Shown here: piece after piece, positions 2,572-24,243 of the stretch
Position numbering within the stretch: the stretch's first letter is position 1
Layout: every line of letters begins with the position of its first letter
Virus record (IMG/VR): IMGVR_UViG_3300013099_000058
Location: 1-30,905 of that record
Source: a virus
DNA length: 30,905 nucleotides
Strand: one strand, 5' to 3'
Translations under genes and position numbers: made by a program
Notes under the pieces: generated by a model
What the model was told of the DNA's origin: nothing
Databases searched by the model: none
What the model saw: the letters and a program-made list of their open reading frames with translations, nothing else

Positions 2572-2598
2572 GCGTAGATTAAATAAAGGACTATGATA

Positions 2599-4854
2599 AT
2601 GACAGATAATGAAGATACAACTTCTGAAACACCTGTAAAGAGGCGTAAGAAACTACAGCCCTCATGGCACAACTGCCCTACACAGGCTGATTTAGATAAT
2701 GACTACAAGTCTGCAGAATCTAGCCAAGACGCATTTAAGGCTAAGCTAGAAGAGTGGTTAGAGACTCGGTCTGGTGGTGATGATATAATTGTTAGTGGAG
2801 TTGGTAAGTCTAAGGCTAGGCCTCTTGTTGTTCGTAAGAATAACGAGTGGAAGTACCCTGCATTAGAGGAGCCATTTCTAAATACAAGCGACTTGTTTAG
2901 AGTTTCCCCTGCAACACATGCAGATACAGAAGCTGCAGAACAGAATAGTCAGATACTTAACTACCAGTGGAACACTAAAGTACAGAAGACTAAGATTGTT
3001 AGTGACATAGTACACACTGTAGTTGATGAAGGTACAGTTATTGTTAAGACTGGCTGGGATGCTGAGTACGATATTGAGGTAGTAGATGAAGAGGTACCTG
3101 TGTATGCAAGTCCTGAAGAATCTATTATGCTTATGCAACAAGCTGTGCAGTCAGGGCAGATGACTCCTGAGCAAGCTAGAGCTATGCTAGAGACTGGTGA
3201 GCCTATGACTGTAGGTTCTGAGATAGAGAAAGTTGAGCGAGAAGTACTTGTTAAGAATCAACCCACATACGAGGTATGTGTAACAGCTAATGTTACAATA
3301 GATCCTACATGCGATGGTGTGGTTGCTGACGCACTTTTTGCTATACATGAATATGATACGTCATATGCCGATCTGAAGAGCAATGAGCACTACGTAGATG
3401 AGGAAGGTAATGAGCATGGAGTTTATTACAATTTAGACTTTATTACACTTGATAGAGGGGCTGATGATAGTTACGACGAGTCATTATCTGATGCTTCTAA
3501 TAACTTTGAGTTTAAAGATAAGGCTAGACGTAGACTAAAAGCTTACGAGTACTGGGGTTATTGGGATATTCAAGGTGATGGTGAGCTTGTAAGTATTGTA
3601 GGTACATGGATTGGTACAACTTTAATTAGACTAGAGGAGAATCCATTCCCGCATAAACGTATACCATTTAGTGTGGCCACGTATATGCCTGTAAGTAACA
3701 ACGTACACGGTGAGCCAGATGCAGAGTTACTTAGAGAGAATCAAGAGTCTATAGGTAAGATGACTAGGGCTATTCATGATATAACTGCTAGGCAGGCTGT
3801 AGGGCAAGAGTTTATAGATGAGAACTTTTTCCCAAGTCCTTCTGTTAAGAATGCTTATGAGAAGGGTCAAACAGTTTACTACCGTTCAGGGTTTAAAGCT
3901 AGTGATGCTGTGTACCGTAAGGATATACAGCAAGTTGGCAGTACTCCTTTTGATGTTATTAAGTGGCAAACAGCTGATGGTAATGAGTTAACTGGTACGA
4001 AGCCCTTTGGTGGTGCTGGTGGTGCTAGAATGGAAGGCAGTGCACAAGTCCGAGACTCAATGGATGCAACTGCTAAGAGAGAGCTGAGTATACTTAGACG
4101 CCTTAGTGATTTACTTTTTGTAGATATGGCTAGGATGACAGTTGCTATGAATCAAGCTTGGCTATCTGAAGAAGAAGTTATCCGTATTACAGATAAAGAG
4201 TTTGTAGTTATTAAGAGAGATGACCTTCAAGGTGATTTCGATTTAAGAGTACAGGTATCCACCCCTGAGAAGGACGATGACCAAGCTACTAAGATTATGA
4301 AGTTGATGCAGACTAATGGTGCTAGTATGTCCCCTGAGATAGCTAAGATGCATTATGTACAGTTAGCTTCATTATGGAACTTGGATGCATTAGCTACCGC
4401 TGTTAAAGAGTATGAGCCTCAGCCTAATCCTAAAGAAGAAGAACTTATGGACTTACAGCTTGAAGAGCAGAAACTTAAAAATGCACTTGCGGCTAAACAA
4501 CTTGAAGATTACGATAGTAAAATCTACGAGAGATTATCTAGAACTGAAGAGAACGCACAGGGCGATGCTAAGCTTAAACAAGCTAAGGCACAACAAGCTA
4601 TTAGTACAGCTGCTAAATTGGATGAAGAGACAGATATCTTGTCACAGTCTTTTCTATTCCTACAGGATGGTACTAAGCGACAGCAAGATATAGAAGACCA
4701 GGAGTATAAGCTACAAGGTGAGATGGCGAAGCAACAACAGAAGGATGTTAATGCAGAGTCTAAAAGTAAAACAGATGATTTACGTCAGGCAGGTATAGAG
4801 CATATTCAGAACGCTTACACACGTACTCCTGGCAAAACACTAGCAGAGATATAA
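2599..4854 (+). CDS. Portal protein, N4-like
   Basis: About 751 residues, close to the length I recall for the N4 portal (763). This protein forms the dodecameric ring through which DNA enters and leaves the capsid. The middle region (residues about 330-510) has the conserved feel of this family: the Glu-Pro-Asp-Ala-Glu-Leu-Leu-Arg-Glu-Asn block, followed by a Gly-rich loop and an Arg-Asp-Ser-Met-Asp-Ala-x-x-Lys-Arg-Glu-Leu helix. The C-terminal 150 residues are a Gln/Lys/Glu-rich coiled coil. A start at 2593 is also possible, but AAAGGA at 2585-2590 is only 2 bases from it and 8 bases from the ATG at 2599, so 2599 is preferred. It lies just downstream of an extended -10 promoter and upstream of the head assembly genes. 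Confidence 0.85.
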   Translation: MTDNEDTTSETPVKRRKKLQPSWHNCPTQADLDNDYKSAESSQDAFKAKLEEWLETRSGGDDIIVSGVGKSKARPLVVRKNNEWKYPALEEPFLNTSDLFRVSPATHADTEAAEQNSQILNYQWNTKVQKTKIVSDIVHTVVDEGTVIVKTGWDAEYDIEVVDEEVPVYASPEESIMLMQQAVQSGQMTPEQARAMLETGEPMTVGSEIEKVEREVLVKNQPTYEVCVTANVTIDPTCDGVVADALFAIHEYDTSYADLKSNEHYVDEEGNEHGVYYNLDFITLDRGADDSYDESLSDASNNFEFKDKARRRLKAYEYWGYWDIQGDGELVSIVGTWIGTTLIRLEENPFPHKRIPFSVATYMPVSNNVHGEPDAELLRENQESIGKMTRAIHDITARQAVGQEFIDENFFPSPSVKNAYEKGQTVYYRSGFKASDAVYRKDIQQVGSTPFDVIKWQTADGNELTGTKPFGGAGGARMEGSAQVRDSMDATAKRELSILRRLSDLLFVDMARMTVAMNQAWLSEEEVIRITDKEFVVIKRDDLQGDFDLRVQVSTPEKDDDQATKIMKLMQTNGASMSPEIAKMHYVQLASLWNLDALATAVKEYEPQPNPKEEELMDLQLEEQKLKNALAAKQLEDYDSKIYERLSRTEENAQGDAKLKQAKAQQAISTAAKLDEETDILSQSFLFLQDGTKRQQDIEDQEYKLQGEMAKQQQKDVNAESKSKTDDLRQAGIEHIQNAYTRTPGKTLAEI

Positions 4855-5851: not shown

Positions 5852-7216
5852 ATGGCAGATAACATCGAGAAAGAAGCAGAGTTCACAGAGGATATCTTTG
5901 ACTCTATGCTACATGGAACGTTTGAGGAGCCAGAAGCGGAAGCTGAGGGTGAGGACGAAAGTGTTGAAGAAGATGCAGATACTGCTGAAGACTTTGACAA
6001 TAATGACGAAGACCACGAGGACACAGACCAAGAAGACGAGTCTGAGACTGAAGAGGAACCTGATGATACTGGCGACGGTGAGGATGATGAGGACTCTGAG
6101 GAATTAGACGAAGATGAGGAAGAAAACTCTCCAGTAGACGAAGATAGTTCAGATGATGAAGGTAGTGATACTGAAGGCGAAGAGGAAGACTCAGACGATG
6201 AGGAAGACTTAGAAGCTGATGAAGGCACTGACGAGGAATCAGAAGATGAAGCAGACACAGAGGACGAAGCTGACGTAGCTGACCCCGAGACTACTGATGG
6301 AATCGACTATAAGGCATTCTACGACACTGTAGTTAATACAGAATTTGTTGTTAATGGTAAGAAGACTAAAGGCTTTTCAGATCCACAGAAAGTTATACAG
6401 TCCATGCAAATGGCTGGTGGCTTTAGTGAGAAGATGGCCGGATTTAAGCAGTATCGCCCGTTTATGTCTCCTTTAAAAGATAGAGGTATGCTGGACGACC
6501 AGTCTAAGTTTGACTTAGCTATGAACCTTATCGATGGGGATAAGGAAGCGATTAAGCAACACCTACAGTCACTAGATATCGACCCGTTAGACTTAGATAT
6601 GGAGCAAATTGACTACGCTGGTAAATCCAACGTAGCTAGTAATGAGTCTCTTGTTATCGAAGATGCAATGGAGAGAGCTAGAGGTATGGGTATTGAAGAT
6701 CGTGTGAGACAAGTTATTGGGAAGGAATGGGATGCTGCAAGCTTCCAGGAGTTCGTCAGTAACGATGCAGTACGTAATGACTTACTAAACCACATGTCCA
6801 CAGGCGATTACGATCGTGTGCAGGATAAGATGGCTGAGTTAAGTAGACTTGATTATAATGGTGCTTATGGTAACATGAACACTATTGGCAAGTACCGCGC
6901 TGCTGTTGGAGAGTTGCAGAGAGAGCAGGCTAATAACCCTGCCCCTGCAGCACCAACACCTCCTGTAAAGGCTGTTAAGAAAGCACCATCAGTTAAGGCT
7001 GAGAAGGCTAAGATAGAGCAAGCTAGGAAGGAGGAGAAGTACAAGGTTGCTGCTGCAGAGCAGGAAGCTAAACGTACTCAACAACGTAAGAAGGCCTCTT
7101 CAATGAGTAAGAAGAAAGCTAAGGCTAAGCCTAAAGCTAAATTCGACCCATTGAAGGTAGAAGGCGAGGAACTAGATGGTCTTATGGACTTTCTAATATC
7201 AGGCGATAGAGGGTAA
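5852..7216 (+). CDS. Scaffold-like head assembly protein with polyacidic N-terminus
   Basis: A 454-residue protein with three blocks. Residues about 10-145 are almost entirely Glu and Asp with Ser, Thr and Gly. Residues about 150-370 are a mixed helical domain. Residues about 370-435 are Lys/Ala-rich and strongly basic. The position directly before the major capsid gene, the acidic disordered arm and the basic helical tail fit a capsid scaffolding protein, the slot of N4 gp57. The polyacidic arm could occupy the capsid interior and exclude or mimic DNA. The extreme composition makes shadow reading frames on both strands. A protease for scaffold removal is not seen nearby, though protein C carries a protease-like motif. 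Confidence 0.75.
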   Translation: MADNIEKEAEFTEDIFDSMLHGTFEEPEAEAEGEDESVEEDADTAEDFDNNDEDHEDTDQEDESETEEEPDDTGDGEDDEDSEELDEDEEENSPVDEDSSDDEGSDTEGEEEDSDDEEDLEADEGTDEESEDEADTEDEADVADPETTDGIDYKAFYDTVVNTEFVVNGKKTKGFSDPQKVIQSMQMAGGFSEKMAGFKQYRPFMSPLKDRGMLDDQSKFDLAMNLIDGDKEAIKQHLQSLDIDPLDLDMEQIDYAGKSNVASNESLVIEDAMERARGMGIEDRVRQVIGKEWDAASFQEFVSNDAVRNDLLNHMSTGDYDRVQDKMAELSRLDYNGAYGNMNTIGKYRAAVGELQREQANNPAPAAPTPPVKAVKKAPSVKAEKAKIEQARKEEKYKVAAAEQEAKRTQQRKKASSMSKKKAKAKPKAKFDPLKVEGEELDGLMDFLISGDRG

Positions 7217-7254: not shown

Positions 7255-8583
7255 ATGTCTACAAAATCATTATTTAACCAAGGTGGTTATACTTCAACTG
7301 GAATTGACGAACAATATAATGACAAGTTCTGGTCAAAAGGTGCTATCCGTGAAGCTGCTAAGAAGAGAACATTCACACAACTAGGTGACCGTTTAACTCA
7401 ACCTAAGCACTACGGTGATGAGATTGTTAAAGAGCGTCAGTTCCCAATCTTACACGAGCTTAACCGTTTAGACGGTGGTGTTGATGCAACAACTGCGTCT
7501 GTAATTTTAGAGACTTTCTACTCTTATAACACTTCAGGTGTATTAGTTGGAACATTCGAGACTAGAGACTATGCTGACGCTGCTGCTGCTGAGACTGCTG
7601 CAATTGCTGCTGCTGGTGGTGGTAAAGTACTTAATGGTGCTGGTGCGTTATATGGTGGAGATGCAGATTATTCTGTTGTTACTGGTACATTCCCAGCGTT
7701 AGGTGAAGAGGGTGGAAACGTTAATGGCGTTAATACTAAATCTGTTACTGTTCGTGGTAATGTTTCTGAGTTTGGTATTCACATGAAATTTACTCAAAAG
7801 TCTATTGATATGGATTCTAGAGTTGGTATCCTTGCACAGAAGACTCGTGCGCTTGGTGAAGCTAAGGGTGACCTATATGAGGCTCAAGTTCAGTCTGATT
7901 TAATTGCTGCTTCTGAGTTAAACAGAACGTTTGCTGGTACTACTGCTACTTCTTTACTTACTTGTAATAGAGATGCTGTACTTACTTTTGCTGACCTCCG
8001 TTTAATGGAGCAAGAACTTAAGAGATTATTAGTGCCACGTGATACTAAAATCATTACTGGTTCAACTAAGATTGATACTAAAGTAGTTGGTAAAGCTTAC
8101 TACGTTTATGTTGGTCAAGAGTTAACTCCAATGCTAGAAGACATGCAACACAATGGTGTTAATGTATGGGTACCTGTTGAAGCTTATGCTGATGCTGCTA
8201 CTACTGCTGATGGAGAGATTGGTAAGATTGGTCGTTTCCGTTTCATCGAAGTTGATAACATGCAAAAATACCGTGGTGTTGGTGTTGCTGATGGTACTGC
8301 TGCTTCTGCAGATGATACTGATGGTTACCACTCTTCTAAAGCCGCTGGTGGTGGTGCAGACTCTTTTGATGTTTTCCCTGTTTTATTCGTCGGGTCTGAT
8401 TCATTTGCTACTGTTGGTTTTGAAGGTGATTCTTCTAAGATTAAGACTGCTATGCCTAAAGCTGATGCTCACAATGACCCTTTCGGAAAGAATGGTTCTA
8501 TGTCAATCGCTTGGTACTTTGGTACTCTTATCTATAGAGCAGAACGCATAAGACAAGTGGCTTGTGTAGCACCAATTAGTTAG
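7255..8583 (+). CDS. Major capsid protein, N4-gp56 family
   Basis: A 442-residue protein with AAAGGA 6 bases before the ATG. The N-terminus (a Lys-Phe-Trp-Ser-Lys block, then a Lys-His-Tyr-Gly-Asp segment introducing the first strand) and the C-terminal Ile-Ala-Trp-Tyr-Phe-Gly-Thr-Leu-Ile stretch are typical of N4-gp56-type HK97-fold capsid proteins. The length fits the family (N4 gp56 is about 400). An Ala/Gly-rich insertion at residues about 100-130 may be an extended loop. Codon choice is visibly more uniform (GGT, GCT, ACT) than in its neighbours, as expected for the most highly expressed virion gene. It lies directly after the scaffold gene and before an inserted endonuclease gene. Confidence 0.9.
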   Translation: MSTKSLFNQGGYTSTGIDEQYNDKFWSKGAIREAAKKRTFTQLGDRLTQPKHYGDEIVKERQFPILHELNRLDGGVDATTASVILETFYSYNTSGVLVGTFETRDYADAAAAETAAIAAAGGGKVLNGAGALYGGDADYSVVTGTFPALGEEGGNVNGVNTKSVTVRGNVSEFGIHMKFTQKSIDMDSRVGILAQKTRALGEAKGDLYEAQVQSDLIAASELNRTFAGTTATSLLTCNRDAVLTFADLRLMEQELKRLLVPRDTKIITGSTKIDTKVVGKAYYVYVGQELTPMLEDMQHNGVNVWVPVEAYADAATTADGEIGKIGRFRFIEVDNMQKYRGVGVADGTAASADDTDGYHSSKAAGGGADSFDVFPVLFVGSDSFATVGFEGDSSKIKTAMPKADAHNDPFGKNGSMSIAWYFGTLIYRAERIRQVACVAPIS

Positions 8584-8651: not shown

Positions 8652-9362
8652 ATGGAATTAGTCAATGAACTAGGTATACTAGGTGTAGGTAGTGCTCGTA
8701 GAGCTTGGGGCACGTTTCTATGTCCTGCCTGTGAGGTAGAAGTAGATAAGCCACTTAATAGTGGTTATCGCAATAAGAGCTGTGGTAATAGTGTCTGCAG
8801 ACGTAGTATGTTTACACCTAATAAAAGCTGTAAAGGTAACACAAAACTGATACCTGACTACTCTCTACCATTTTACTCTTCAATTAAAGAGCGCTACAGG
8901 TTAATTAAACTAGAACATAAACTATGTAGTGAGTGGGGAACTTTAAAAGGCTTCATGGACGATATGTATGACTCATATGTTGAGGCTAGAATCAATTGTA
9001 AGTACCTTGCGTTTAATGTGGATGGTGCTGTGGCTTCTAAAGCCTCATGTATATGGACACCTAAAAGTAAGTACGCTAGATTTGATAAGTTAACAGCTTC
9101 TAAATCTTCGTATGTGTACATTGTGAGTGTTGAAGGGTTTTACAAAATAGGCATGACCAAACGTCTTGCAGATCGGATGGAGGCTTTCAATACCTCTAAC
9201 CCTTATGAAGTAAAGGTAGTCACAGCTATTCCTGTAAGTAATGCTTCTTCCATAGAGAAGAAGCTGCACTTACTATATGCAGAACACAACGTAAAAGGTG
9301 AGTGGTTTAACTTAACAGAGTCACAAGTTGAGGATATTATTAAATACCTTAACGACTTATAA
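8652..9362 (+). CDS. GIY-YIG (MUG113/T5orf172-type) homing-like endonuclease
   Basis: A 236-residue protein. The N-terminal part has four cysteines (24, 27, 44, 49) that probably form a zinc-binding DNA-recognition unit. The C-terminal 85 residues are a GIY-YIG nuclease of the MUG113/T5orf172 type: Tyr154-Val-Tyr156 and Tyr164-Lys-Ile-Gly167 form the signature, Arg175 is the expected catalytic arginine, and a Gly-Glu-Trp-Phe near residue 218 supplies the metal-binding glutamate. Such proteins cut DNA and often behave as free-standing homing endonucleases. It interrupts the head gene order between the capsid protein and the next virion protein, and has a promoter on both sides, as expected for a mobile insertion. 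Cysteine-rich composition also sets it apart from its neighbours. Confidence 0.85.
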   Translation: MELVNELGILGVGSARRAWGTFLCPACEVEVDKPLNSGYRNKSCGNSVCRRSMFTPNKSCKGNTKLIPDYSLPFYSSIKERYRLIKLEHKLCSEWGTLKGFMDDMYDSYVEARINCKYLAFNVDGAVASKASCIWTPKSKYARFDKLTASKSSYVYIVSVEGFYKIGMTKRLADRMEAFNTSNPYEVKVVTAIPVSNASSIEKKLHLLYAEHNVKGEWFNLTESQVEDIIKYLNDL

Positions 9363-10094: not shown

Positions 10095-10193
10095 ATGGGA
10101 CGTACAAAATGGTCTGAAAGTAATATAGTAACTGGTACTATCACATACACGATGTGTACTGATAGTACTTGGAAACTAAATAAGGAGTCATAA
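10095..10193 (+). CDS. Small coupled ORF, 32 residues
   Basis: ATG at 10095 follows AAAGGA (10084-10089) by 5 bases, the same extended site used before other virion genes. The 32-codon frame ends in TAA that shares its last base with the ATG of the next gene (TAATG), a strong sign of real, coupled translation. The peptide has one cysteine (residue 21) and two tryptophans. Its Lys-Trp-Ser-Glu start resembles the Lys-Trp-Ser-Asp at the start of the next protein. It could be a small virion protein or, given the radical SAM enzyme 1.2 kb downstream, a substrate peptide. The latter is speculation. Confidence 0.6.
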   Translation: MGRTKWSESNIVTGTITYTMCTDSTWKLNKES

Positions 10194-10498
10194 TGGCGGA
10201 TATAAAATGGAGTGATATTGTAGGCAATTGCACTGTAAGTGATGGAGGCTATGTTGGCTGTTTGATGCAGTTAGCTAGTGCTCACATAAATGCTGCTGTT
10301 GAGGCTTCCAGAATCACACAGGATCATGCAGGGGAAGTGTACACAACTATGATACCAGCTGCTATGCAACATGGTATAGGTTTTGCAATGCAGGATGAGT
10401 TGACTGAGGCTGAAATAGAGAAAGCTTTAGCTGAAACTGTTGTTGTGCAACAGAAGATCGTTGGACGTAAGCAACTACCTGCAGAGAGTGGTGACTAA
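10193..10498 (+). CDS. Small protein of the radical SAM operon (101 aa), hypothetical
   Basis: A 101-residue protein, coupled to its neighbours by TAATG overlaps on both sides. GGAG lies 5 bases upstream of the ATG. Two cysteines (residues 12 and 22) sit in a Gly-rich N-terminal stretch. The rest is helical and Ala/Glu-rich, ending in a basic-acidic tail. No domain is recognised. The tight coupling suggests that it works with the following proteins, probably in virion assembly. Confidence 0.75.
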   Translation: MADIKWSDIVGNCTVSDGGYVGCLMQLASAHINAAVEASRITQDHAGEVYTTMIPAAMQHGIGFAMQDELTEAEIEKALAETVVVQQKIVGRKQLPAESGD

Positions 10499-10794
10499 TG
10501 GCTAGGGGATTTGGACGTGATAAGTCTAGAACAGCGTTAGCAGTATCTGCACAGACTAAAATTACTATTGAGGGTGATTATGAAGATGATAGAATTAAAG
10601 CTTCTAACGTATTTCACGCCCTAGGTGTTACATTTAGTGGTAATGCTGTATCCAGTATACAAGTACTTGAGGACATCGATGATTTACAGTTAAGAGTTCA
10701 AGTACTCGAAGATTGGATATCCAATATATACCCAGCACACATACACCAGTATGATGATGATGGAGTTACAGAAGAAACTACAGGAGTAATCTAA
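10498..10794 (+). CDS. Small virion-operon protein (98 aa), hypothetical
   Basis: A 98-residue, cysteine-free protein in the TAATG-linked chain. The N-terminus is basic, the centre holds a short helix with heptad leucines and valines (residues about 60-80), and the C-terminus is acidic with a His-Ile-His-Gln-Tyr segment. The heptad stretch could mediate oligomerisation. No family is recognised. Confidence 0.75.
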   Translation: MARGFGRDKSRTALAVSAQTKITIEGDYEDDRIKASNVFHALGVTFSGNAVSSIQVLEDIDDLQLRVQVLEDWISNIYPAHIHQYDDDGVTEETTGVI

Positions 10795-11420
10795 TGGGAT
10801 TAATGAGTACAACACAGGCAATAAAAACAGTATCTACATATATAAAGAACTTTGACGGAACTACTAGTATCGATGAGAGCAAGGTTGAGATTGACACATT
10901 CACTGGGTACAGTAGAGTTGTTGTTACAACAGTTGATGCACCACTTCCAGGTGACTCTACTACTGTTACTACAGAGATAGCACCATTTCAACTAGTGGAT
11001 ACTGTTGAAGTAGACAGAGTATTTGATGCGATGATTACATCAGTATCTGACTCTTTAGATACATTATATGGTGCTGACAAACTAGATGCTGAACTGTACT
11101 CTAAGGTACTGGCTTCAATGATGCAAAGTACATTAGATTTAGCTACTAAGTCTGCTCAACAGCAACCAACACTAGATGCACAGTTACTCAAGACTGAGGC
11201 TGACACATCGTTTGTTAAGACACAACAGAATGAGTTAAGTAAGTCTGTAGGGTATAACAATAAGATTAAAGCACTTGATGCTTACTCAGACCTTATTGGT
11301 ACTATGGGAGCGGGTGGATTGACTATTTCGGAAAATATGTGGAGTACAGAGTTTGACATGATAGCTGATTTAAATACGTCTGGTACGTTCACAGGAACAC
11401 CGGTAGTAAGTAAGCTGTAA
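10794..11420 (+). CDS. Virion protein (208 aa), hypothetical
   Basis: A 208-residue, cysteine-free protein. AGGAG lies 6 bases before the ATG, which overlaps the previous stop (TAATG). The N-terminal half is Thr/Val-rich and probably beta. Residues about 95-175 are helical with Gln/Ser/Lys. The C-terminal 25 residues are Thr/Gly-rich. It ends two bases before the radical SAM gene. Its place among virion genes and its composition suggest a structural or ejection component. It is one candidate partner of the radical SAM enzyme. Confidence 0.75.
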   Translation: MGLMSTTQAIKTVSTYIKNFDGTTSIDESKVEIDTFTGYSRVVVTTVDAPLPGDSTTVTTEIAPFQLVDTVEVDRVFDAMITSVSDSLDTLYGADKLDAELYSKVLASMMQSTLDLATKSAQQQPTLDAQLLKTEADTSFVKTQQNELSKSVGYNNKIKALDAYSDLIGTMGAGGLTISENMWSTEFDMIADLNTSGTFTGTPVVSKL

Positions 11421-11422
11421 CT

Positions 11423-12373
11423 ATGAGCGGCTTTACTATTATAGACGAAGCTGTAACTATTGAGCTTACAACCAATTGTAACCTTAACTGTAGCTACTGC
11501 TACTTAAGTGAGGAAGCACGTACTGCTAAGTACAGTGCTGTTGAGGTGGGTATTAAAGCCATGAATCATTGCAGGGATATAGTTCGTACAATGAAGAGGG
11601 ACGGAGTTATACTTCGTTCAGTTATGCTACTTTCAGCAGAGCCTACGGTTCTGAATGCAAATCACCTAGCTATGTGTATTAATATATTGAGTGAACGTGT
11701 TGAACACATTCAGATTATGACTAACGGAGTTAGACTTGCAGATGAGGATTACTATAATTCACTTTTTAAGTTAGTGAAAGATGTAAGAGTTACTATAGGT
11801 GTAACTATAGATGGTTATAAGGAACTACATGATGCCGCTAGAGACAATAGTTATGATGACGCTGCTAGCACTGTTGCTAGGTTATATAAAGACAAGAGAC
11901 TAGAGCGCGTTAATATAGTGGTAGGTACAGAGGCTATTAAGGACCCTGAGAGGTTCAAAGCTTGGTATAAGGAGTTTATCCTTGATAGAGGTATTCTTCA
12001 CATAGCGAGCTCCGTAGAGCCTCCTGTGATACTAAGTATGCAGGAGCGTATGGCTATTATAAAGCTACTGCGTGATATGACTGATATGCATGGAGAAGCT
12101 ATTGATACAGACGTTGATATGTGTAGTAATGTACATATACTGCTTGATCGAGCTATAGCTCAATGTACCAATGACTGTGCTACGGTATCAGGTAAGTACA
12201 TTAACCTGGATTCAGACTTTAAACTGTTACTAGCCTCAAGGCAGTATTACACTAAAGTGATGAATGAAGAGTGCAAGACTTGTGATAAACAGGATATATG
12301 TAATGTGCATTGTCATTGGCATACAGCACCTAATGGGTTCGCTTTTAATTGTGCGTATGGTAGGAATGATTAG
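11423..12373 (+). CDS. Radical SAM enzyme with SPASM-like auxiliary cluster domain
   Basis: A 316-residue protein. Cys19-x3-Cys23-x2-Cys26 is the canonical radical SAM motif that binds the [4Fe-4S] cluster reducing S-adenosylmethionine. Later features fit the fold: the Thr-Ile-Asp-Gly-x-x-x-x-His-Asp strand of peptide-modifying members lies near residues 130-141. The C-terminus has Cys284-x2-Cys287-x5-Cys293-x3-Cys297 and Cys310, the exact spacing of the SPASM auxiliary-cluster region, although the usual Gly-x4-Cys upstream is not conserved (Cys248 and Cys252 may substitute). SPASM proteins modify peptides or proteins (for example anaerobic sulfatase maturases, PqqE, sactipeptide maturases). 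QueE is excluded by motif spacing and length. The gene is embedded in, and coupled with, virion genes, so a virion protein is the likeliest substrate. The substrate itself is unknown. Confidence 0.88.
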   Translation: MSGFTIIDEAVTIELTTNCNLNCSYCYLSEEARTAKYSAVEVGIKAMNHCRDIVRTMKRDGVILRSVMLLSAEPTVLNANHLAMCINILSERVEHIQIMTNGVRLADEDYYNSLFKLVKDVRVTIGVTIDGYKELHDAARDNSYDDAASTVARLYKDKRLERVNIVVGTEAIKDPERFKAWYKEFILDRGILHIASSVEPPVILSMQERMAIIKLLRDMTDMHGEAIDTDVDMCSNVHILLDRAIAQCTNDCATVSGKYINLDSDFKLLLASRQYYTKVMNEECKTCDKQDICNVHCHWHTAPNGFAFNCAYGRND

Positions 12374-13215
12374 TGGGTTTAAGAAGTCCTAAGTTTAGAA
12401 CCCCTGGTGCAATAAAGAGCTTAAGTAACAGCTTTTTAGGTGATATATTCGGTGCACTGCTCGCTGCATTTACCAACCTAGCGCTAGCCGTTTACGGTTT
12501 TGGGGAAACTATCGTGGATGTGATTAAAGAAGTTAATCATATAGCTATCGATGCAGTAGTTGATGTGCATATAGAGTTAACAGAGCTGGCAGGAAGCACA
12601 ACTGACGCCCTTGTAGGCAGTGAGTTTGAAGCAGGTACGTTAGTGAATGCTGCTGAAGGCGCGAGATGGGTAAGTCATGGTATTGTTGAAGGGGATAAAA
12701 ACGCCATACTGATGGGTGCTATACTGGCTGCTTCTATTGCGCTGGCTGTATTATCTGCAGGGGCTGCAACAGGTTTAGTTATGACCGCTATTGCTTACAT
12801 ATCTGTAGCCTACACAATCTACAATGTTACTATGACACTTGCAGAGCTTGGAGAGATGATCACTCAGCGTCCGGACTTATTCTACGACTCCTACGGTAAC
12901 CTGACCATGCAGTATATGCACGAGTACTGGCAAAGTATGCGAGATGCTATGAACCTTAATATAGCCCTTGGCTTTATTACAGGCTCTATTTACAACTGGT
13001 ACCCAGGGCAGCTACTATACGATGCACCTAGAGCAGGGGATATACTATTCGCTGCTGATGGTGCTCAAGACACGGTAATGTTCTATGGAGGGCAAAACAA
13101 CAACATAAAGATGCTGAACGAAGTTAACGTAACAAATAGATACTCAGAGCCATGGACTAACCACATAGATAATCTAGCAGGTGAGAATGACTTTAACTGG
13201 ACGACAATAACGTAA
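12373..13215 (+). CDS. Hydrophobic internal virion/ejection protein candidate
   Basis: A 280-residue, cysteine-free protein. The GTG start at 12373 shares a base with the radical SAM stop (TAGTG), and AGGA lies 7 bases upstream. Residues about 20-50 form an amphipathic to hydrophobic helix, and residues about 115-155 hold two membrane-type segments rich in Ala, Ile, Leu and Gly. The C-terminal 100 residues are soluble and aromatic-rich. This resembles phage ejection proteins that enter host membranes (T7 gp14/gp15 type) and the position of the N4 30-kDa internal protein. Translational coupling to the radical SAM gene makes it a candidate substrate or partner. Confidence 0.65.
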   Translation: MGLRSPKFRTPGAIKSLSNSFLGDIFGALLAAFTNLALAVYGFGETIVDVIKEVNHIAIDAVVDVHIELTELAGSTTDALVGSEFEAGTLVNAAEGARWVSHGIVEGDKNAILMGAILAASIALAVLSAGAATGLVMTAIAYISVAYTIYNVTMTLAELGEMITQRPDLFYDSYGNLTMQYMHEYWQSMRDAMNLNIALGFITGSIYNWYPGQLLYDAPRAGDILFAADGAQDTVMFYGGQNNNIKMLNEVNVTNRYSEPWTNHIDNLAGENDFNWTTIT

Positions 13216-13258: not shown

Positions 13259-14098
13259 ATGTGGGCTGAATTAGGAAATGCGTTAACTAGTGGTGTAACA
13301 GGTCAAATAATGCAGACACTTGGTGGTGCTGCAATTGGGTATGGTATAGACAGGTTATCAGGTGGTAATGGCGGTATTGGTGCCGCACTTGGAGGACTCG
13401 GCGGATTAGGTAACTCTTTCTCTAGTGGCTTCGGTGGTGTAGCAGGAGGATTCTCAGACACTTTTATAGGTGGAGGTGTGTTAGGCCTGGGTGGTGAGGT
13501 TGCTGCCGATGCGGCTGTTGATGGTGCTATAAGCCCTATAACAGGAAATGCTGACAAGCTAGTCCTACAGTCTAATGGTTCGTATGCACTCCCAGGCACA
13601 GCTCAAAGGCTTGCCCAGGACGGATTTGCCGGAGCAGCTGTGCCTCAGGTCCAAATCGGAGCGGTTGGCCTTAACCCAGGGACAGACGCGGCATTAGCAG
13701 AAGTTGCGGCGGGTACTAGCTATCCTTCAGTGTTTAACCAGCCTCACGCTGTACAGCCGGTAAACCCAGATACAGTTGTTAAAGGCCTCACACCTATGGA
13801 GAACGTAGGGCTTGGTATTAAAGGCTTGACAGACATGGGTGGGATGTACCTTAGGTACGATCAAGGTAAAAATGAGAGTAAGGCCGCTAAAGATGCTATG
13901 TACACAAACCTAGCTATGCATAATAGTCAATTGGCAGAGACTAAACGTTACAACGACTTTCAAGAGAATAGACTTGTAGCTGGGGATGATAGACGTGACA
14001 CTACTAACAGTGGAGCGATAGGGGCATTTGATAACAGTGCATTAGCAATTGGTAAGAAGAAGAAGAGACCAGTGCCTACTTCATCAACGGCGATGTAG
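13259..14098 (+). CDS. Glycine-rich internal virion protein
   Basis: A 279-residue, cysteine-free protein with GAGG 8 bases before the ATG. Residues about 5-110 are extremely rich in Gly, Ala and Ser with hydrophobic spacing, such as might insert in a membrane. Residues about 180-250 are a helical, charged segment, and the end is Lys-rich. The plan is like T7 gp14-type internal core proteins that form a channel in the outer membrane. Only composition and position support this. The next gene begins two bases behind its stop. Confidence 0.65.
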   Translation: MWAELGNALTSGVTGQIMQTLGGAAIGYGIDRLSGGNGGIGAALGGLGGLGNSFSSGFGGVAGGFSDTFIGGGVLGLGGEVAADAAVDGAISPITGNADKLVLQSNGSYALPGTAQRLAQDGFAGAAVPQVQIGAVGLNPGTDAALAEVAAGTSYPSVFNQPHAVQPVNPDTVVKGLTPMENVGLGIKGLTDMGGMYLRYDQGKNESKAAKDAMYTNLAMHNSQLAETKRYNDFQENRLVAGDDRRDTTNSGAIGAFDNSALAIGKKKKRPVPTSSTAM

Positions 14099-18600: not shown

Positions 18601-19667
18601 GACTAGATGAGTTACAGGCACTAGCTAATGATACGTCACCAGCAGCACAGCAAGGTGCCCAGGAGACACAAACAGGAACTAAGGGTAAAGATACTAGTGT
18701 AGCACCTGTAACGCCTTCAGCGCCAGCTGAGGATGCACCTGGTACTGGTGAAGGGCCAATGACTGGACAGGAACGTAGGGATAACCAGAACGGTAGCATT
18801 GCTAGGGACATTGCCAGTGGTAATGGTATAGCTAAAGATGACTTCCAACACTACGAGGCTAATAAGGCTGCGATAGATGAGTTAGTTGCTAGTATTAATG
18901 AAGCTAACAAGCCTACTGTAGAGGATCCTGTAGACACGTCACCAGAGACCCCTACGGAGCCCGTGAAGGCACCGGAGAAGAAACCTGAGGTAAGTACTCC
19001 TGTTAAGCCTGATAATGGCACTGACACCAACAGTATAACGTTAGAAGAAGCTAAGGCTTGGAAGAGACCTAAGATGCCTGACTGGTTAACCCCTGGTAAG
19101 GTAAGTAATTGGAATAAGGCAGTTGAAGAACTTGGAGCGGCCTATAAGAAGTTACCTGGTCTTGTGTACATGGCTGATAGTGGCAGGACTGCTGCTATGA
19201 GAAGGGATGCTAAAAAAGAACTAGATGCCCTCAACAAAAAGATCACAGCACGTAAGAATACTATTCAAACTCTAATGAAGAAGCCTAAGAAGTCTGATAG
19301 ACAGAATAGGATTGAGGATGCTGGCATTGAAAACTCTACCACTACTACCGATCCTGAGCAGGCTGCTAAGGATGTTAAGAATGCTATGAAGGGAGATCCT
19401 GTTAAGGTTAAGGAAGAAGATGCTGAAACTATAACAGAGCTGGACAAGGACTACGTGAGCCCAGACATAGACTATGCTGCTGAGATAGCTAAGCTGGATG
19501 CTAAAGAAACACCGGTTAAAAAGCAACCTACAACAGAAGATGCTATAATTGCACCAATAGAAGAAGACTCTACTACGATTGTAGAGAGTATAAACACAGA
19601 CCTAGACGCTATATTCAATTCATTTGAAACCGACGCTGTCGATGGTACTAAACCTTGCGGGATATAA
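15687..19667 (+). CDS. Giant virion protein A: N-terminal part of split vRNAP, SNase-like motif
   Basis: 1326 residues from a TTG start, with AAAGGATAT (15677-15685) directly upstream. Residues 70-92 match the staphylococcal-nuclease active site: Ile70-Asp71-Gly-Asp73-Thr74, Arg84, then Asp89-Thr90-x-Glu92 (compare SNase Asp19/Asp21, Arg35, Asp40-Thr41-x-Glu43). Tyr175-Gly-Arg177 could be the second catalytic arginine (SNase Arg87), after a longer insertion. Residues about 368-395 and 577-610 are hydrophobic or amphipathic. Pro/Thr/Glu-rich linkers lie at about 980-1030 and 1075-1110. The only cysteine seen is Cys1324, third from the end (Cys-Gly-Ile). Protein B follows one base behind the stop. 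By order and size it corresponds to the N-terminal third of the N4 vRNAP polypeptide. That equivalence is inferred. Confidence 0.7.
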   Translation: MSNIDISKYLADAQIAANDVYNNSSQRKSDRLQERTASKQERIGTYDNLVQTGYFDPTQSVVSSNNFRTIDGDTFDLGRDHSTRILGSDTYESTKSNYSQWIADPKNQDRMNRQVAALTAATGTPATYADVFAAGDKQKAEADAVLHGNLPVMLQETLLQNAGTHVMKNGKPVNYGRDLGHYTTLGGQYSNPDGTTGNGAIEVLGSNEQQALADMQKYGTAKYAGDTSEHTAANFVPVTSDDGFFDSLLRVPQAMLAGAGKSTYDLADTAVEAVGNIAARGAEATGFDSIADTVDKMDIATDKEKTSQVNSLIGYDNKHSDSIMKESGDKYVKAMKDVDLFSPSTWGNIDTEALGDSITTALSTPETAGYSFGYLAPALMGILEKGAVKLLSVAGQQSAKKVATIASSKTLSKAAKRKRIAATTRNMSLTDKSKMVLADHADALGYGAMMTNDQLDEVMVANGGERESLFKVGSMLALNAAGMKLDMASARAITTGPGAADKLVTALKGMGKTKATQVMAAVTAYAAKLGAAGLTEMPQEFTQSYIEAFNKAYGVKQADGTKMSAKEAALSEEVRTEAGQGAIAGLTSAPYMTAGASVVGKVKEGLGLAVGKAGESLQARKDAKAVDTGWKTPESIPDEDLGSAVEAIHEAEAGIERDEEQPYNREAHAAAVVKIDEREAPIAELDTDDVANLQEGQTAEILQETAKGFDHDYAMGMEVLKEQAAMAVDNGITDVHPNFVEFVKQGIGGLQADADAVLAAGGTNKAAAMQAKIDRLIPLLTANTTQELSAILNAPGMDDNTKIAQIMGSSATSTEDIDNILKSTEPTEKQKKLLELKRQTIIDVAGVKEQKLTGGGAKPGVMQWAAMLMDGKENPAAIKRINNFADGQRTKLKEFQKVIDDWDVTNGMEWTKEGNTKVYPHSDTTLQNKMHLRSNSSINSKLSSPITYKGSTYKDIGTIANLANEMENEQVRLDELQALANDTSPAAQQGAQETQTGTKGKDTSVAPVTPSAPAEDAPGTGEGPMTGQERRDNQNGSIARDIASGNGIAKDDFQHYEANKAAIDELVASINEANKPTVEDPVDTSPETPTEPVKAPEKKPEVSTPVKPDNGTDTNSITLEEAKAWKRPKMPDWLTPGKVSNWNKAVEELGAAYKKLPGLVYMADSGRTAAMRRDAKKELDALNKKITARKNTIQTLMKKPKKSDRQNRIEDAGIENSTTTTDPEQAAKDVKNAMKGDPVKVKEEDAETITELDKDYVSPDIDYAAEIAKLDAKETPVKKQPTTEDAIIAPIEEDSTTIVESINTDLDAIFNSFETDAVDGTKPCGI

Positions 19668-19668
19668 T

Positions 19669-22600
19669 ATGAGCTGTACAACATTTAAAGATTTAAATAC
19701 AATAGAATTAACACTTAATAATAAAGTATTAAAGGGTAACGCTAAAGACGCTACACCTAAAGTTAAGGCTGAAGGAGAGGCTGCTCAGAGAGACTTAGCA
19801 AGAGTTGAGCAAGCTAGAGAGTTACTAGAACAGCAAGCGTTCTACGATGACCTAGGTGTTACCATAAACGAGGCTGTATTATCCGTAGCTGATGACTTTA
19901 CTGAGGAGTATGAGAGTGATCCTGAGTACATTAAGTTACAGGAAGAGTTAGAGGCTATTATGGCTAATAAGACTGCAGCTGTAAATAAAATACTTAAAGC
20001 AACATACTACAATTCAAATAGTAAGTTCGGTAAGGTTAAAGGGGAGTATAAAGATGGTAAGTTTCAAATAGAGAATGCCGCTAATTATAATGAAACTCTA
20101 GACTCTTGGATAGATGGTAAGAATGAGTACATAGCTTCCCAGCAAGAAGCTGTTGAGAAGTTTAACTACATCTTAGCTAACTCTCCGAAGCTATCTGCAG
20201 ATAACAGAGCAGCTGTTGAGAGTAAGAAGTTTGATACTCAGGAGTCTATAAAGAAGGCCCAGGGTAAAGTTAAAGAGTGGGGAGGCTACAAGGCTTCTAA
20301 TGAGGCTAGAGCTAAACAAGCATCTAAGAATGTCAATGCTAAAGCTAAGGCCTTAGAGGAGAGTAAGGCACAAGCCGCTGCACTACAATTAAAGAATATA
20401 GAGATAGAGGATTACAAGGCATCTAAGACTGCAGGTGCTAAAGTGTTAAACACTGCCCCTGGTAACCATGGTTCTAGACTTAGTGATTTCTTAAAGCCTA
20501 AAGTTGTATTCAATAGGCTTAAAGAATACACTAATAATATAAGTGCTGCATTCACATCAGCTATGACATCTGCTATGTCTATTATGGAAGTGAAGGCTGT
20601 TAAGAACTCAGAAGCTATACTCACAAGAGTTGTAGCAAATGTAGAGGCCTCAGTTAAAGAGTACATGAATAAAGATATGGCTATTATAGATGTAGCTTAC
20701 CCTAAGGTTGGTGAAGGTTACCAAAGTATCTCCCAGTTATTACTAGTAGATGGTAAGCTAAGTGATGAAGTAACTTTAGCTATTGCTGTTGCTTCTACTG
20801 AATGGATGGCTAATGTGTCTTCAATGAGAGCAGGGCACCGTACTGAAAAGGTTGCCAAGCAGTTGCTTAAGAAGTCTGCAGGAGACTCTATGACACCAGC
20901 GGAATGGGATGCCATAGCTGATGTTGATATGTTTTTAACTACAGCTGCTAACTCTTTAGGTGCTGATATATCTAAGATAATTGGATGGTCTATAGATTTA
21001 GAGAATGATCCAGAAGCTGATCTAAAGAAAAGAAAGCTAGATAATGAGTTGGGACTAATTGCCCTACATGCACTAGCTCGTACTACTAAGGATAAGGACG
21101 GTAAGAAAGTACCTGGTATTATCACTATTAAGACTAAGGATAGTGCTGACATATTTGTTAAGAATAACACACTAGTTGAGAACGGTAGAAGTCGCCAGCT
21201 CAATGTAATAAAGTTTACAGCTAAAGGTAATGCGTATTTAGACAATAAGTCTGGTATTGCTTCACGTACAGCAAGGCTAATCTCGGATATATTTAATACT
21301 GAGAAGAAGTTGAAGCCTCCACGAGGTGCTAAAGCCAAGAAGAAGGTATTCAAGAATAAGTCTGGTATTCAGAATAAGCATACTACAGTTAATCCTACAG
21401 TACAGAGTGGCTTAAATGCTGCACAGAATGTTAAGTGGAACTGGAATGATGACTTTATAGGTGATGTGTTCCTAATGCTTGAAGATGAGGCCGGTAGAGA
21501 ACGCTTAGAGAAGTTAATGGGATATGTAGATCCAGCAACTAAGCACGTTAGGTACGCTAAGGCACTTACTTCTGAGAACAACAGGATTAAGAGAGAGATA
21601 ACAGAGCTTGAGGCTGCAAGAGCAGAGGCTATGCGTAAGGGTAATACATCAATATTCTTTGACTACTTTTATGGTAAGAATGGTAGAGTTTATGTAGAGA
21701 CTAATACTCTTAACCCTCAGCTATCTAAGTTACAGCTAATGGCCCTCTCATCTGAAGAAGGTGTAGTAACATCTGATAGAGATGTTGATATGTATGATAA
21801 AGCAATGGCTGGTGCATTTGGAGTTAAAACAGATAAGTTAACTTTACAAGATGATGTTAATGGTACACCAGGTATATTAACTACTTGGGCTAAGACCGAA
21901 GCTAAGTTACAAGAGCTAGAGATAAATACATTAGGCCTTGAAGATGCTATTACAGCTGTTGAAGACTACAATAGTGCTATTGATAGTAATAAAGATATGA
22001 GTAAAGCTGAGAAGAAGGCTGCTAAGATTGGTGGCTATGGCCCGCTACTTTTTGCAGGATTAGTTGAGTATCGTAAGTATGCTAATGCTAAAGCACTAAA
22101 TGGTAGTACTAAAGGGGTTAACCCTACTATTATTATGGAAGTTGATGGTGTTACTAATGGGTATGTACTTAAATCACTACAGATGCCTCTATTAGATGAT
22201 ATGAAGACATCACTGCAAAGTGGTGGGGTTATGATAGGTACTAGGTTTGATAAGAAGCCTAAACTAAGTAAGTACCAAGTGTGGGAGCAAGATGCAGAAG
22301 GTACTAGTGGAGTTATGTTTGAGTACGGAAGTACTACACAGCAGATAATGGATCCAAGTACACTAGATGCGTATGAAGTGCCTGCTAAGAAGATGGATGT
22401 GATGTTTCAAGCTATCTTTGGCAAGAAGAACACACAGCCAGAGTCTCTTAAAAGGTTTGCAGAGTTAGCTACATCGTCTAGCTTGTTTGCACTTAACAAT
22501 GACGGTAGTACGGAAATGCCTGAGATTACTAGAGAGTTTATGAAGCCTCCGTTTATGACGTTTAACTACGGTGCTGGTATGACTGGTATTATCCAGGATA

Positions 22601-24243
22601 TGGCTGACACTACCATAGATGAAGTATACAGCCTTTTAGAGCAATTACATGCAGCAGAGTTAGCTAATGATAAAGATGCCTCTAAGGCTCTTACAACACG
22701 CCTTGAGGCACTGTTTAGAGCTAGTAATGATACATGGGTTAAAGGTGAGAAGGGCTGGGAAGCTACTTCTACACCAATTGATTCAGAGCAGTTAATTAGA
22801 GAGTTACATACAGCTATAAGTAACGGTACTTTACTGCAGTTTAATATACCTCAGCCAACAATAGATGCCATGGGCTCTAGTGTTAAGGCTAGTGTAGGTG
22901 AAATGGTTAAGGAAGTATTCCAAGACTATAAGCCATTCATTGATGCGTCTACTACGATTAATGATTCATTTAAAGTTATGTTTAGATTGTTTAAAGCTAG
23001 ATTAGATGATGCTATAGAGTTTAGAGAGAAAGAGTTAAGTAGACCTCTTACAGAGAATGAAGTAGATGCAATTATCAGTGTACTAGGTGACTCGATGCCA
23101 GCTATTCAAACAGCACTTGCTGAAGGTGCTAAGGATAATCTAATTATTATGGACGAGTCTGCATCATTAGTTGATGCTGGTGAGGACGGAAAGATTACAG
23201 GTCAGACTAAGTATAGATACAACACTGCAACTGCTACTGCTCGTAATAAGACTAAGATTAACGCGTTAGAGCAGAAGCTCGCTACTGCTGCGAAAGGGCC
23301 TGAGTACAATAAGATTGCTGCAGAGATTAAGACCTTAAAGAACGGCTACACCTCTTCACAGGCTAAGCAGTACATATTGATTGAAGCTATGGCAGCTGGG
23401 TCAGTTATCCCTATTCACTTTATAGATGGTGTGTTAATGGCTAGTACGTTATCACAGACTAATGGCATGGGTAATCACGATGCTGTATATGAGTCGCCAC
23501 TAAATGTAGATCAGACTAGTAGCCACTACGATATGAAGATGGCACAGATAAGTAAAGAGTACAGTTTAACTGCTGAGATACTTAAAAGTCTCATATCAGC
23601 TATTAATAGTGCAGAGCCTGGACAGGTTAAGAAAGTTAATGAGCAGTACTTAGTAGAAGCGTACGATGTAACTAATAGTACAACTGTGCAGTCTGTAATT
23701 AGTGACATGAAGGACTTATATAGAAACTCAGAGAGAGGGCGTACAGAGGTATTAAGTAACCCTATACGTTACGACCACTTAGCTAATGAAGGTGGACACT
23801 ACGATTGGAATATGAGTGGGGAGGACTACGTAACACCTCCACTAGGTGCTAAGCTTTCATACAAGTTCTCTCAGGCTGATGAAATAGAGATGGAGAGTAG
23901 TACGTTTACAGACTCTGCTTTTGTAGAGATGTCATACCCTAAAAGTAACAATCCTGACAGAGTTAACCGTAAGAACACTGTTAGTTCAGTAGCTAAGCTT
24001 GGAGGCAAGTATATAGTGCATGTTGATGGGTGGGGTAACGCTGCGATTGTTGATGGCAAGACTGGGTTAAACAAGACTGGTAAGGTTAAGTTTGATATAG
24101 CGGAACTGGAGAGGCTACTTAAGATAGCACCGGTAGATCCTGCTATAATACCAGTTAAAAATAAAGCTACGTTAGATGGTTATAGTGATGCAGCAACAAG
24201 TGCAGCTCAAAGTATACTAGATAACGCGTGTGGGAGTAAGTAA
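19669..24243 (+). CDS. Giant virion protein B: virion RNA polymerase, N4 vRNAP-like catalytic part
   Basis: 1524 residues from the ATG at 19669. A longer reading from 19624 overlaps gene A and is rejected. It has the phage-type single-subunit RNA polymerase motifs in order. The Gly-Arg motif is Gly672-Arg673-Val-Tyr with Asn-Pro-Gln behind it. Motif A is Asp826-Gly-x-x-x-Gly831. Motif B is Arg955-x3-Lys959-x3-Met963-Thr964-x2-Tyr967-Gly968. Motif C is His1270-Asp1271. The two catalytic aspartates are thus Asp826 and Asp1271. The distances are wider than in T7 RNAP and nearer to those I recall for N4 vRNAP. The enzyme would be injected with the DNA and transcribe early genes. The first 600 residues are helical and lysine-rich. 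Only two cysteines are seen, Cys3 and Cys1521 (four from the end). No N4-like polypeptide of 3500 residues surrounds it. A and C take those places. Confidence 0.9.
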   Translation: MSCTTFKDLNTIELTLNNKVLKGNAKDATPKVKAEGEAAQRDLARVEQARELLEQQAFYDDLGVTINEAVLSVADDFTEEYESDPEYIKLQEELEAIMANKTAAVNKILKATYYNSNSKFGKVKGEYKDGKFQIENAANYNETLDSWIDGKNEYIASQQEAVEKFNYILANSPKLSADNRAAVESKKFDTQESIKKAQGKVKEWGGYKASNEARAKQASKNVNAKAKALEESKAQAAALQLKNIEIEDYKASKTAGAKVLNTAPGNHGSRLSDFLKPKVVFNRLKEYTNNISAAFTSAMTSAMSIMEVKAVKNSEAILTRVVANVEASVKEYMNKDMAIIDVAYPKVGEGYQSISQLLLVDGKLSDEVTLAIAVASTEWMANVSSMRAGHRTEKVAKQLLKKSAGDSMTPAEWDAIADVDMFLTTAANSLGADISKIIGWSIDLENDPEADLKKRKLDNELGLIALHALARTTKDKDGKKVPGIITIKTKDSADIFVKNNTLVENGRSRQLNVIKFTAKGNAYLDNKSGIASRTARLISDIFNTEKKLKPPRGAKAKKKVFKNKSGIQNKHTTVNPTVQSGLNAAQNVKWNWNDDFIGDVFLMLEDEAGRERLEKLMGYVDPATKHVRYAKALTSENNRIKREITELEAARAEAMRKGNTSIFFDYFYGKNGRVYVETNTLNPQLSKLQLMALSSEEGVVTSDRDVDMYDKAMAGAFGVKTDKLTLQDDVNGTPGILTTWAKTEAKLQELEINTLGLEDAITAVEDYNSAIDSNKDMSKAEKKAAKIGGYGPLLFAGLVEYRKYANAKALNGSTKGVNPTIIMEVDGVTNGYVLKSLQMPLLDDMKTSLQSGGVMIGTRFDKKPKLSKYQVWEQDAEGTSGVMFEYGSTTQQIMDPSTLDAYEVPAKKMDVMFQAIFGKKNTQPESLKRFAELATSSSLFALNNDGSTEMPEITREFMKPPFMTFNYGAGMTGIIQDMADTTIDEVYSLLEQLHAAELANDKDASKALTTRLEALFRASNDTWVKGEKGWEATSTPIDSEQLIRELHTAISNGTLLQFNIPQPTIDAMGSSVKASVGEMVKEVFQDYKPFIDASTTINDSFKVMFRLFKARLDDAIEFREKELSRPLTENEVDAIISVLGDSMPAIQTALAEGAKDNLIIMDESASLVDAGEDGKITGQTKYRYNTATATARNKTKINALEQKLATAAKGPEYNKIAAEIKTLKNGYTSSQAKQYILIEAMAAGSVIPIHFIDGVLMASTLSQTNGMGNHDAVYESPLNVDQTSSHYDMKMAQISKEYSLTAEILKSLISAINSAEPGQVKKVNEQYLVEAYDVTNSTTVQSVISDMKDLYRNSERGRTEVLSNPIRYDHLANEGGHYDWNMSGEDYVTPPLGAKLSYKFSQADEIEMESSTFTDSAFVEMSYPKSNNPDRVNRKNTVSSVAKLGGKYIVHVDGWGNAAIVDGKTGLNKTGKVKFDIAELERLLKIAPVDPAIIPVKNKATLDGYSDAATSAAQSILDNACGSK

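Follow-up and report, generated by a model that had tools for sequence, protein, structure and literature searches.

The open reading frame at positions 11423-12373 (+ strand) of the 30,905-base virus record, analysed here in its whole length (the window), is intact, opens with ATG and encodes a radical SAM protein of 316 amino acids. With slightly better than even confidence, this protein is considered to be a divergent SPASM-type maturase whose substrate is a virion protein encoded in the same operon. The SPASM enzymes known so far act mainly on small peptides and on a few proteins. The original prediction knew of no characterised phage enzyme of this type in such a place, and this agrees with a literature search in which, among sources available in part and with most subscription papers outside its scope, a phage radical SAM enzyme modifying a virion protein was not found reported; this is not proof of absence.

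The window derives from a distant environmental N4-like (Schitoviridae-like) virus, as evident from its portal, capsid and virion RNA polymerase genes and from its gene order, which matches that of N4 from gp59 to gp50. The order in N4, an Escherichia phage of the Schitoviridae, is portal-58-57-capsid-55-54-53-52-51-vRNAP. In the window, the portal, gp57-like, capsid, RNA polymerase and g11 to g16 genes lie on the + strand. The portal protein (gp59-like, 2593-4854; phrog_1216, E = 4.6e-155) is followed by a gp57-like protein (5852-7216; phrog_2120) and by the major capsid protein (gp56-like, 7255-8583; phrog_1357, E = 1.8e-74), which is about 33% identical to the capsid proteins of Schitoviridae. 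In N4 the virion RNA polymerase forms a single piece, whereas in the window it is split into two open reading frames (19624-24243, phrog_2206, E = 1e-65; 24243-28574, phrog_2206, E = 9.8e-117) with a 1-nt overlap; separate-frame matches were also recorded in several relatives. Directly after the capsid gene, at 8652-9362, there is a T5orf172/MUG113 domain gene (PF13455, 1.6e-18), likely a homing-endonuclease-type insertion, which has the same place in some relatives. A fibre-like protein of 606 aa (724-2544) carries 13 Cys, four of them within its first 45 residues.

The radical SAM cluster motif CX3CX2C is formed by C19, C23 and C26. The seven SPASM positions are filled in the alignments by C234, C248, C284-x2-C287-x5-C293-x3-C297 and C310, the subfamily being defined by seven Cys (C..C, CX2CX5CX3C, C). 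The motifs named in the original prediction, CX3CX2C and CX2CX5CX3C with a last Cys, are thus present as described. The Pfam match to PF04055 (E = 2.2e-11) places the protein in the radical SAM superfamily, and phrog_1802 matches residues 11-304 (E = 5.6e-18). The Pfam SPASM model PF13186 gave no report for the window enzyme at E<=0.1, while it matches the relative in contig L018 at 2.3e-5. The Gly of CX9-15GX4C is absent by reading, and the extra Aux-I-side Cys that the family rows hold upstream of C234 is missing as well, leaving the Aux-I ligands incomplete. The absence of this Gly and Cys, together with the missing Pfam match, suggests that the auxiliary clusters may be unusual.

Structure prediction from a 26-row alignment gave a radical SAM plus SPASM-like fold with a mean pLDDT of 81.3 and a pTM of 0.84, an earlier 7-row model having had a poor SPASM half; as the 26 rows contain other SPASM proteins, the fold is not independent proof of that half. 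When residues 6-312 of the predicted fold were compared with solved structures by VIA-align, the matches were led by the peptide- or protein-modifying SPASM enzymes anSME and ChlB (Z 21) and SuiB, SkfB and CteB (about 20), in line with the enzyme type proposed originally. Substrates other than peptides are the subject of a quite improbable alternative, in which the enzyme is metabolic or directed at the host, its target being a small molecule or lipid or its chemistry viperin-like on nucleotides, and lies in the late operon by chance. Putative metabolic radical SAM genes do occur in phages, twelve radical SAM genes being recorded in one T4-like genome (PMC5332604) and PQQ-related ones being described too (PMC7678222), according to the parts of these sources available. 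Weak matches to tetraether synthase (3.2e-11), GDGT-MAS (0.0054) and viperin (3.1e-8) were also obtained. However, every curated cut-off is missed by far, the structural scores favour peptide SPASM enzymes (21) over GDGT-MAS (16) and viperin (19), and both the recurrent siting of the relatives by virion genes and a fused form, described below, speak against it. Viperin itself was rejected (NF038283, 28.1 bits against a cut-off of 180; PADLOC pVip, 31 bits), and QueE was ruled out on scores.

Among the characterised systems, anSME (PDB 4k36-4k39) resembles the window enzyme in its radical SAM plus SPASM architecture and is matched by the family profile at E = 3e-30. It differs in that the window enzyme reaches only 45.8 bits against the TIGR03942 cut-off of 349, and in the residue after the second SPASM Cys, which in anSME is an Asp that acts as the base, but Thr in the window enzyme and Asn or His in the relatives. 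There is also no sulfatase-type motif nearby: [CS]x[PA]xR is absent from the neighbours, and two Ser-type motifs only were found, in the virion RNA polymerase and a helicase. The earlier suggestion of formylglycine is therefore not upheld. Cyclophane-forming maturases (YhhB, AmcB, FxsB, GrrM) target aromatic-x-Asn; they rank among the top NCBIfam hits (5.4e-14 for YhhB), and one W-x-N lies in the C-terminal tail of g15, the gene after the enzyme. The window enzyme is nevertheless far under their cut-offs, with virion-gene neighbours and no short precursor gene seen. The fold is also shared with the structurally solved RiPP maturases ChlB, SuiB, SkfB and CteB (Z 20-21), but identity to them is about 15%, and the core of the window enzyme starts near residue 10, which leaves no space for a leader-binding domain at the N-terminus.

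Searches with the single sequence gave no relative of the enzyme in phages (E<=1e-5) or in viral contigs; relatives were reached via portal relatives, L059 first and then L085 and L090, the Campylobacter phage CAM-P21 and L018. In the window enzyme, Ala72 replaces the second Gly of GGE. This replacement is common to 7/7 family members in alignment A5 (the window enzyme and 6/6 family rows) as against 0/19 other enzymes, all 19 of which keep the Gly. The window enzyme matches a family profile built without it at E = 1.7e-28 (96.6 bits), a profile on which some bacterial enzymes score alike (102.8 bits), and in the tree it joins the phage family on a long branch (2.86) with 86/85 support, below the 95/80 mark. 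The marker Ala, the profile match and the common clade, all features of sequence, assign the putative maturase to the phage family with Ala for Gly (phrog_1802). A family member accompanies 2/80 portal relatives (L018 and L059; 37 + 43 records, most of them fragments), which indicates that the enzyme is dispensable for N4-like virions.

Gene neighbourhoods, one of the checks proposed originally, support the original prediction in that the relatives recur beside, or fused to, virion genes. In L059 the gp53 position is taken by an Ala-rich domain fused to the radical SAM domain by way of a Gly/Ser/Asp linker (GCGCGGCGG...). In L085 and L090 the order is TerL, portal, radical SAM, with one 73-aa gene intervening after the portal in L085, and the gene after the enzyme opens with a conserved CGC...C/Gly-rich segment (MYCGCS...GGDAAC). 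The L018 enzyme lies about 4 kb upstream of the portal; the second gene before it encodes a fibre-like protein with a Cys-rich tail, STCALCASCSGCPCSYSFPAC..., at its end. The gp53-position protein of L018 has the Gly/Ser/Asp linker and no Cys; the motif FxxMAGGxxYxAxFxGGI is common, by eye only, to it and the L059 domain, and pairwise phmmer between the 502-aa L018 protein and the L059 C-terminal domain was not significant (E = 1). In Campylobacter Mu-like phages, e.g. CAM-P21, the gene is flanked by tail fibre and tail sheath. These phrog_1802 proteins are like the window enzyme in the Ala of GGE, the SPASM Cys and the tail-gene neighbours; they differ in their length (585-606 aa) with a C-terminal extension, and their fibres have an Asn-rich tail. 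The siting of the sampled lineages beside or fused to tail or particle genes suggests that these phages may chemically modify their own particles.

The L059 fusion would also fit an enzyme that is itself a virion component, serving either as an Fe-S protein of the tail or, after ejection, as an enzyme in the host, a role that might be confined to this fused type. Iron-sulfur clusters are described in siphophage tail tips in the literature available in part. The enzyme and g15 are separate genes in the window, and those of L085, L090, L018 and the Campylobacter phages are separate too, which argues against such a role. [4Fe-4S] enzymes are, moreover, oxygen-labile. This explanation is regarded as a little less probable still than the metabolic one.

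The preferred reading, a maturase for virion proteins, draws also on the operon. The gene sits without gaps in the late operon, between gp54-like genes and g15. Upstream lie g11, a gp54-like virion protein (10193-10498; phrog_2050 'virion structural protein', E = 8.5e-9; BUCT194 gp072, E = 4.6e-9; N4 gp54, E = 1.9e-4), g12 (98 aa, 10498-10794), whose homologues stand beside g13-like genes in the L018 and L059 contigs, and g13, a second gp54-like protein (10794-11420; phrog_2050 'virion structural protein', E = 8.4e-6; L018, E = 2e-10). The TAA stop of g13 ends 2 nt ahead of the ATG of the enzyme, whose TAG stop shares 1 nt with the GTG start of g15 (TAGTG). Downstream follow g15 (12373-13215), a 280-aa protein without Cys, with a hydrophobic middle and an Asn-rich C-terminal stretch of 45 aa, and g16 (13259-14098, 279 aa), which has a long Gly-rich N-terminal half and a C-terminal part weakly resembling N4 gp52 (E = 0.0015). 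Coupling to structural genes on both sides, as predicted originally, thus stands for the upstream side, where g13 and g11 match the virion structural family phrog_2050; on the downstream side g15 qualifies by position only.

The N4 tail tube is formed by gp54, the tail plug by gp53 and the ejection channels by gp52 and gp51, gp52 being an outer-membrane pore ejection protein (preprint PMC12633501, available in part). In the N4 record gp53 follows gp54 immediately, whereas the window has the radical SAM gene at this site. Profile searches gave no significant family match for g15, and no homology to gp53 was detected (hhalign, E = 0.05). In close relatives, the gene after the equivalent site is gp53-like (against BUCT194 gp073: L024, 2.5e-13; L049, 6.5e-10; L012, 1.4e-6), and in one-sequence comparisons g15 has a short resemblance to the L059 and L018 proteins (E 0.0055 to 0.04). 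By its position and the short motif that it weakly shares with the L059 and L018 proteins, g15 would take the place of the N4 tail plug gp53.

A clue to the substrate comes from the Campylobacter phages, in which the fibre two genes upstream of the enzyme ends in ...NNNNY, ...GNNF or similar. A C-terminal NN[YFN] was found in 12/1753 distinct open reading frames of at least 100 aa from all collected loci, and all 12 are at the fibre position of Campylobacter phages. In a search of 150 host-family genomes, the enzyme was present in six and the phrog_14531 fibre in 33, the fibre profile having been built from the N-termini of five enzyme-linked fibres. NN occurs in the last 10 residues of 14/14 distinct complete fibres linked to the enzyme as compared to 0/7 homologous unlinked ones (Fisher p = 9e-6, a value that overstates independence because the fibres are related, with about eight distinct tails). 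The linked set includes near-identical fibres; L102, L106, L162 and L163 stand outside the 14, though their tails hold NN. The unlinked fibres come from 26 loci without a radical SAM gene in view, several of them cut; seven distinct fibres were complete and had the required 1200 bp of sequence downstream.

The window has a possible counterpart. Within its 21 proteins the Asn-richest 45 residues are the last 45 of g15, with 10 Asn (Asn is 5.3% overall), and the only NNN in 9783 aa lies in the same tail. The Asn density of this tail has a within-protein shuffle value of 0.00025, but the tail was spotted after the Campylobacter result, and such a post hoc match could be chance at the percent level. 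The single W-x-N of the tail (W261-T-N263) is one of seven across all window proteins. The window neighbours lack both the CGC motif and a C-terminal NN[YF]. The g15 tail is named as the modified part with much reserve, as the first but still doubtful candidate.

Another virion protein may instead be the substrate of such a maturase, modified by thioether formation or another change; the candidates are g11 at Cys13 or Cys23, g16 in its Gly-rich N-terminal half, and the fibre-like g03 at its N-terminus, which bears Cys. The Cys of g11 are rare in its relatives (Cys13 in 2/32, Cys23 in 0/32), and in L059, L085 and L090 the enzyme occurs together with Cys/Gly segments. Furthermore, Cys-dense frames (at least 6 Cys in 30 aa) make up 12/144 of the plus-strand open reading frames within three genes of a radical SAM gene as compared to 1/178 of the distant ones in 21 viral contigs (p = 4e-4). 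These contigs are a distinct set, from which L086 (a near-duplicate), L097, L098, L100, L102-L104, L106, L115, L116 and other duplicate or near-identical loci were omitted. Ten of the 21 have Cys-dense neighbours, some of which may themselves be Fe-S enzymes, and N4-like loci lacking a radical SAM gene have 4/984 such frames. L018 is the only member of the window's family above this threshold. The window itself has no Cys-dense neighbour of the gene, and the two scattered Cys of g11 may have arisen by chance; substrates of this kind are considered unlikely. The predicted Cys thioether in particular is doubtful because g12, g13, g15 and g16 contain no Cys. No convincing short Cys-rich precursor gene lies by the enzyme, which does not have the make-up of a RiPP maturase with its precursor; a Cys-dense frame at 12699-12896 was rejected, as it falls within g15 but out of frame with it, and similar frames arise elsewhere in the window by chance.

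Cys-repeat proteins beside phage radical SAM genes were observed in L087 (11079-11690), L108 (5578-6126), L099 (8055-8567), L111 (7902-8627 and 14585-15526) and L114 (11228-11899), examples being one of the form (CTCDCNY)n ending in SDIRLK and one with 47 Cys in 313 aa. They are candidate phage RiPP-like virion proteins. Arrays of many radical SAM genes occur in the single viral contigs L108 and L109 (8 and 10 profile matches).

At the site of the window's enzyme, four N4-like contigs carry a ketosynthase-like gene instead (L049, 17401-19044, PF02801 3.2e-11; L024, 14442-15765; L012, 15853-17425; L015, 17448-18976). An acyltransferase-like gene stands alongside in all four, and in L049, L012 and L015 there is also a small protein whose DSFG motif is ACP-like, both by eye; the set might serve lipidation or acylation of the virion.

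In the maturase mechanism proposed for the window enzyme, SAM bound to the [4Fe-4S] cluster at residues 19/23/26 would be cleaved to a 5'-deoxyadenosyl radical, an activity expected from the motif. This cleavage is established for the radical SAM superfamily. The SPASM clusters, as suggested by the seven conserved Cys and the fold, would hold and oxidise the substrate, which would be a flexible segment of a virion protein encoded by a neighbour, the likeliest being the Asn-rich tail at the C-terminus of g15. The product may be a backbone or side-chain modification, speculatively an aromatic-to-Asn carbon-carbon crosslink at W261-T-N263, which would stiffen or cap the tip or plug region. Members of the phage family would modify virion proteins in this way during their synthesis. 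As a broader and tentative proposal, held with well below even confidence, a single radical SAM family in tailed phages may mature virion proteins via low-complexity tags, these being the Asn-rich tails of receptor-binding fibres and, in proteins at the tail-plug position, Gly/Cys segments or Asn-rich tails. In N4-like viruses the gp54-gp53 junction would be a slot for alternative virion-modifying cassettes, either radical SAM or an acyl-carrier-like protein with a ketosynthase and acyltransferase-like set.

The Campylobacter Mu-like phages have isolates, so the idea is open to mass spectrometry now. If the family does work on phage tails, parts of the particle would carry radical-made crosslinks or caps that the sequence does not reveal, and receptor binding, stability and ejection would be affected.
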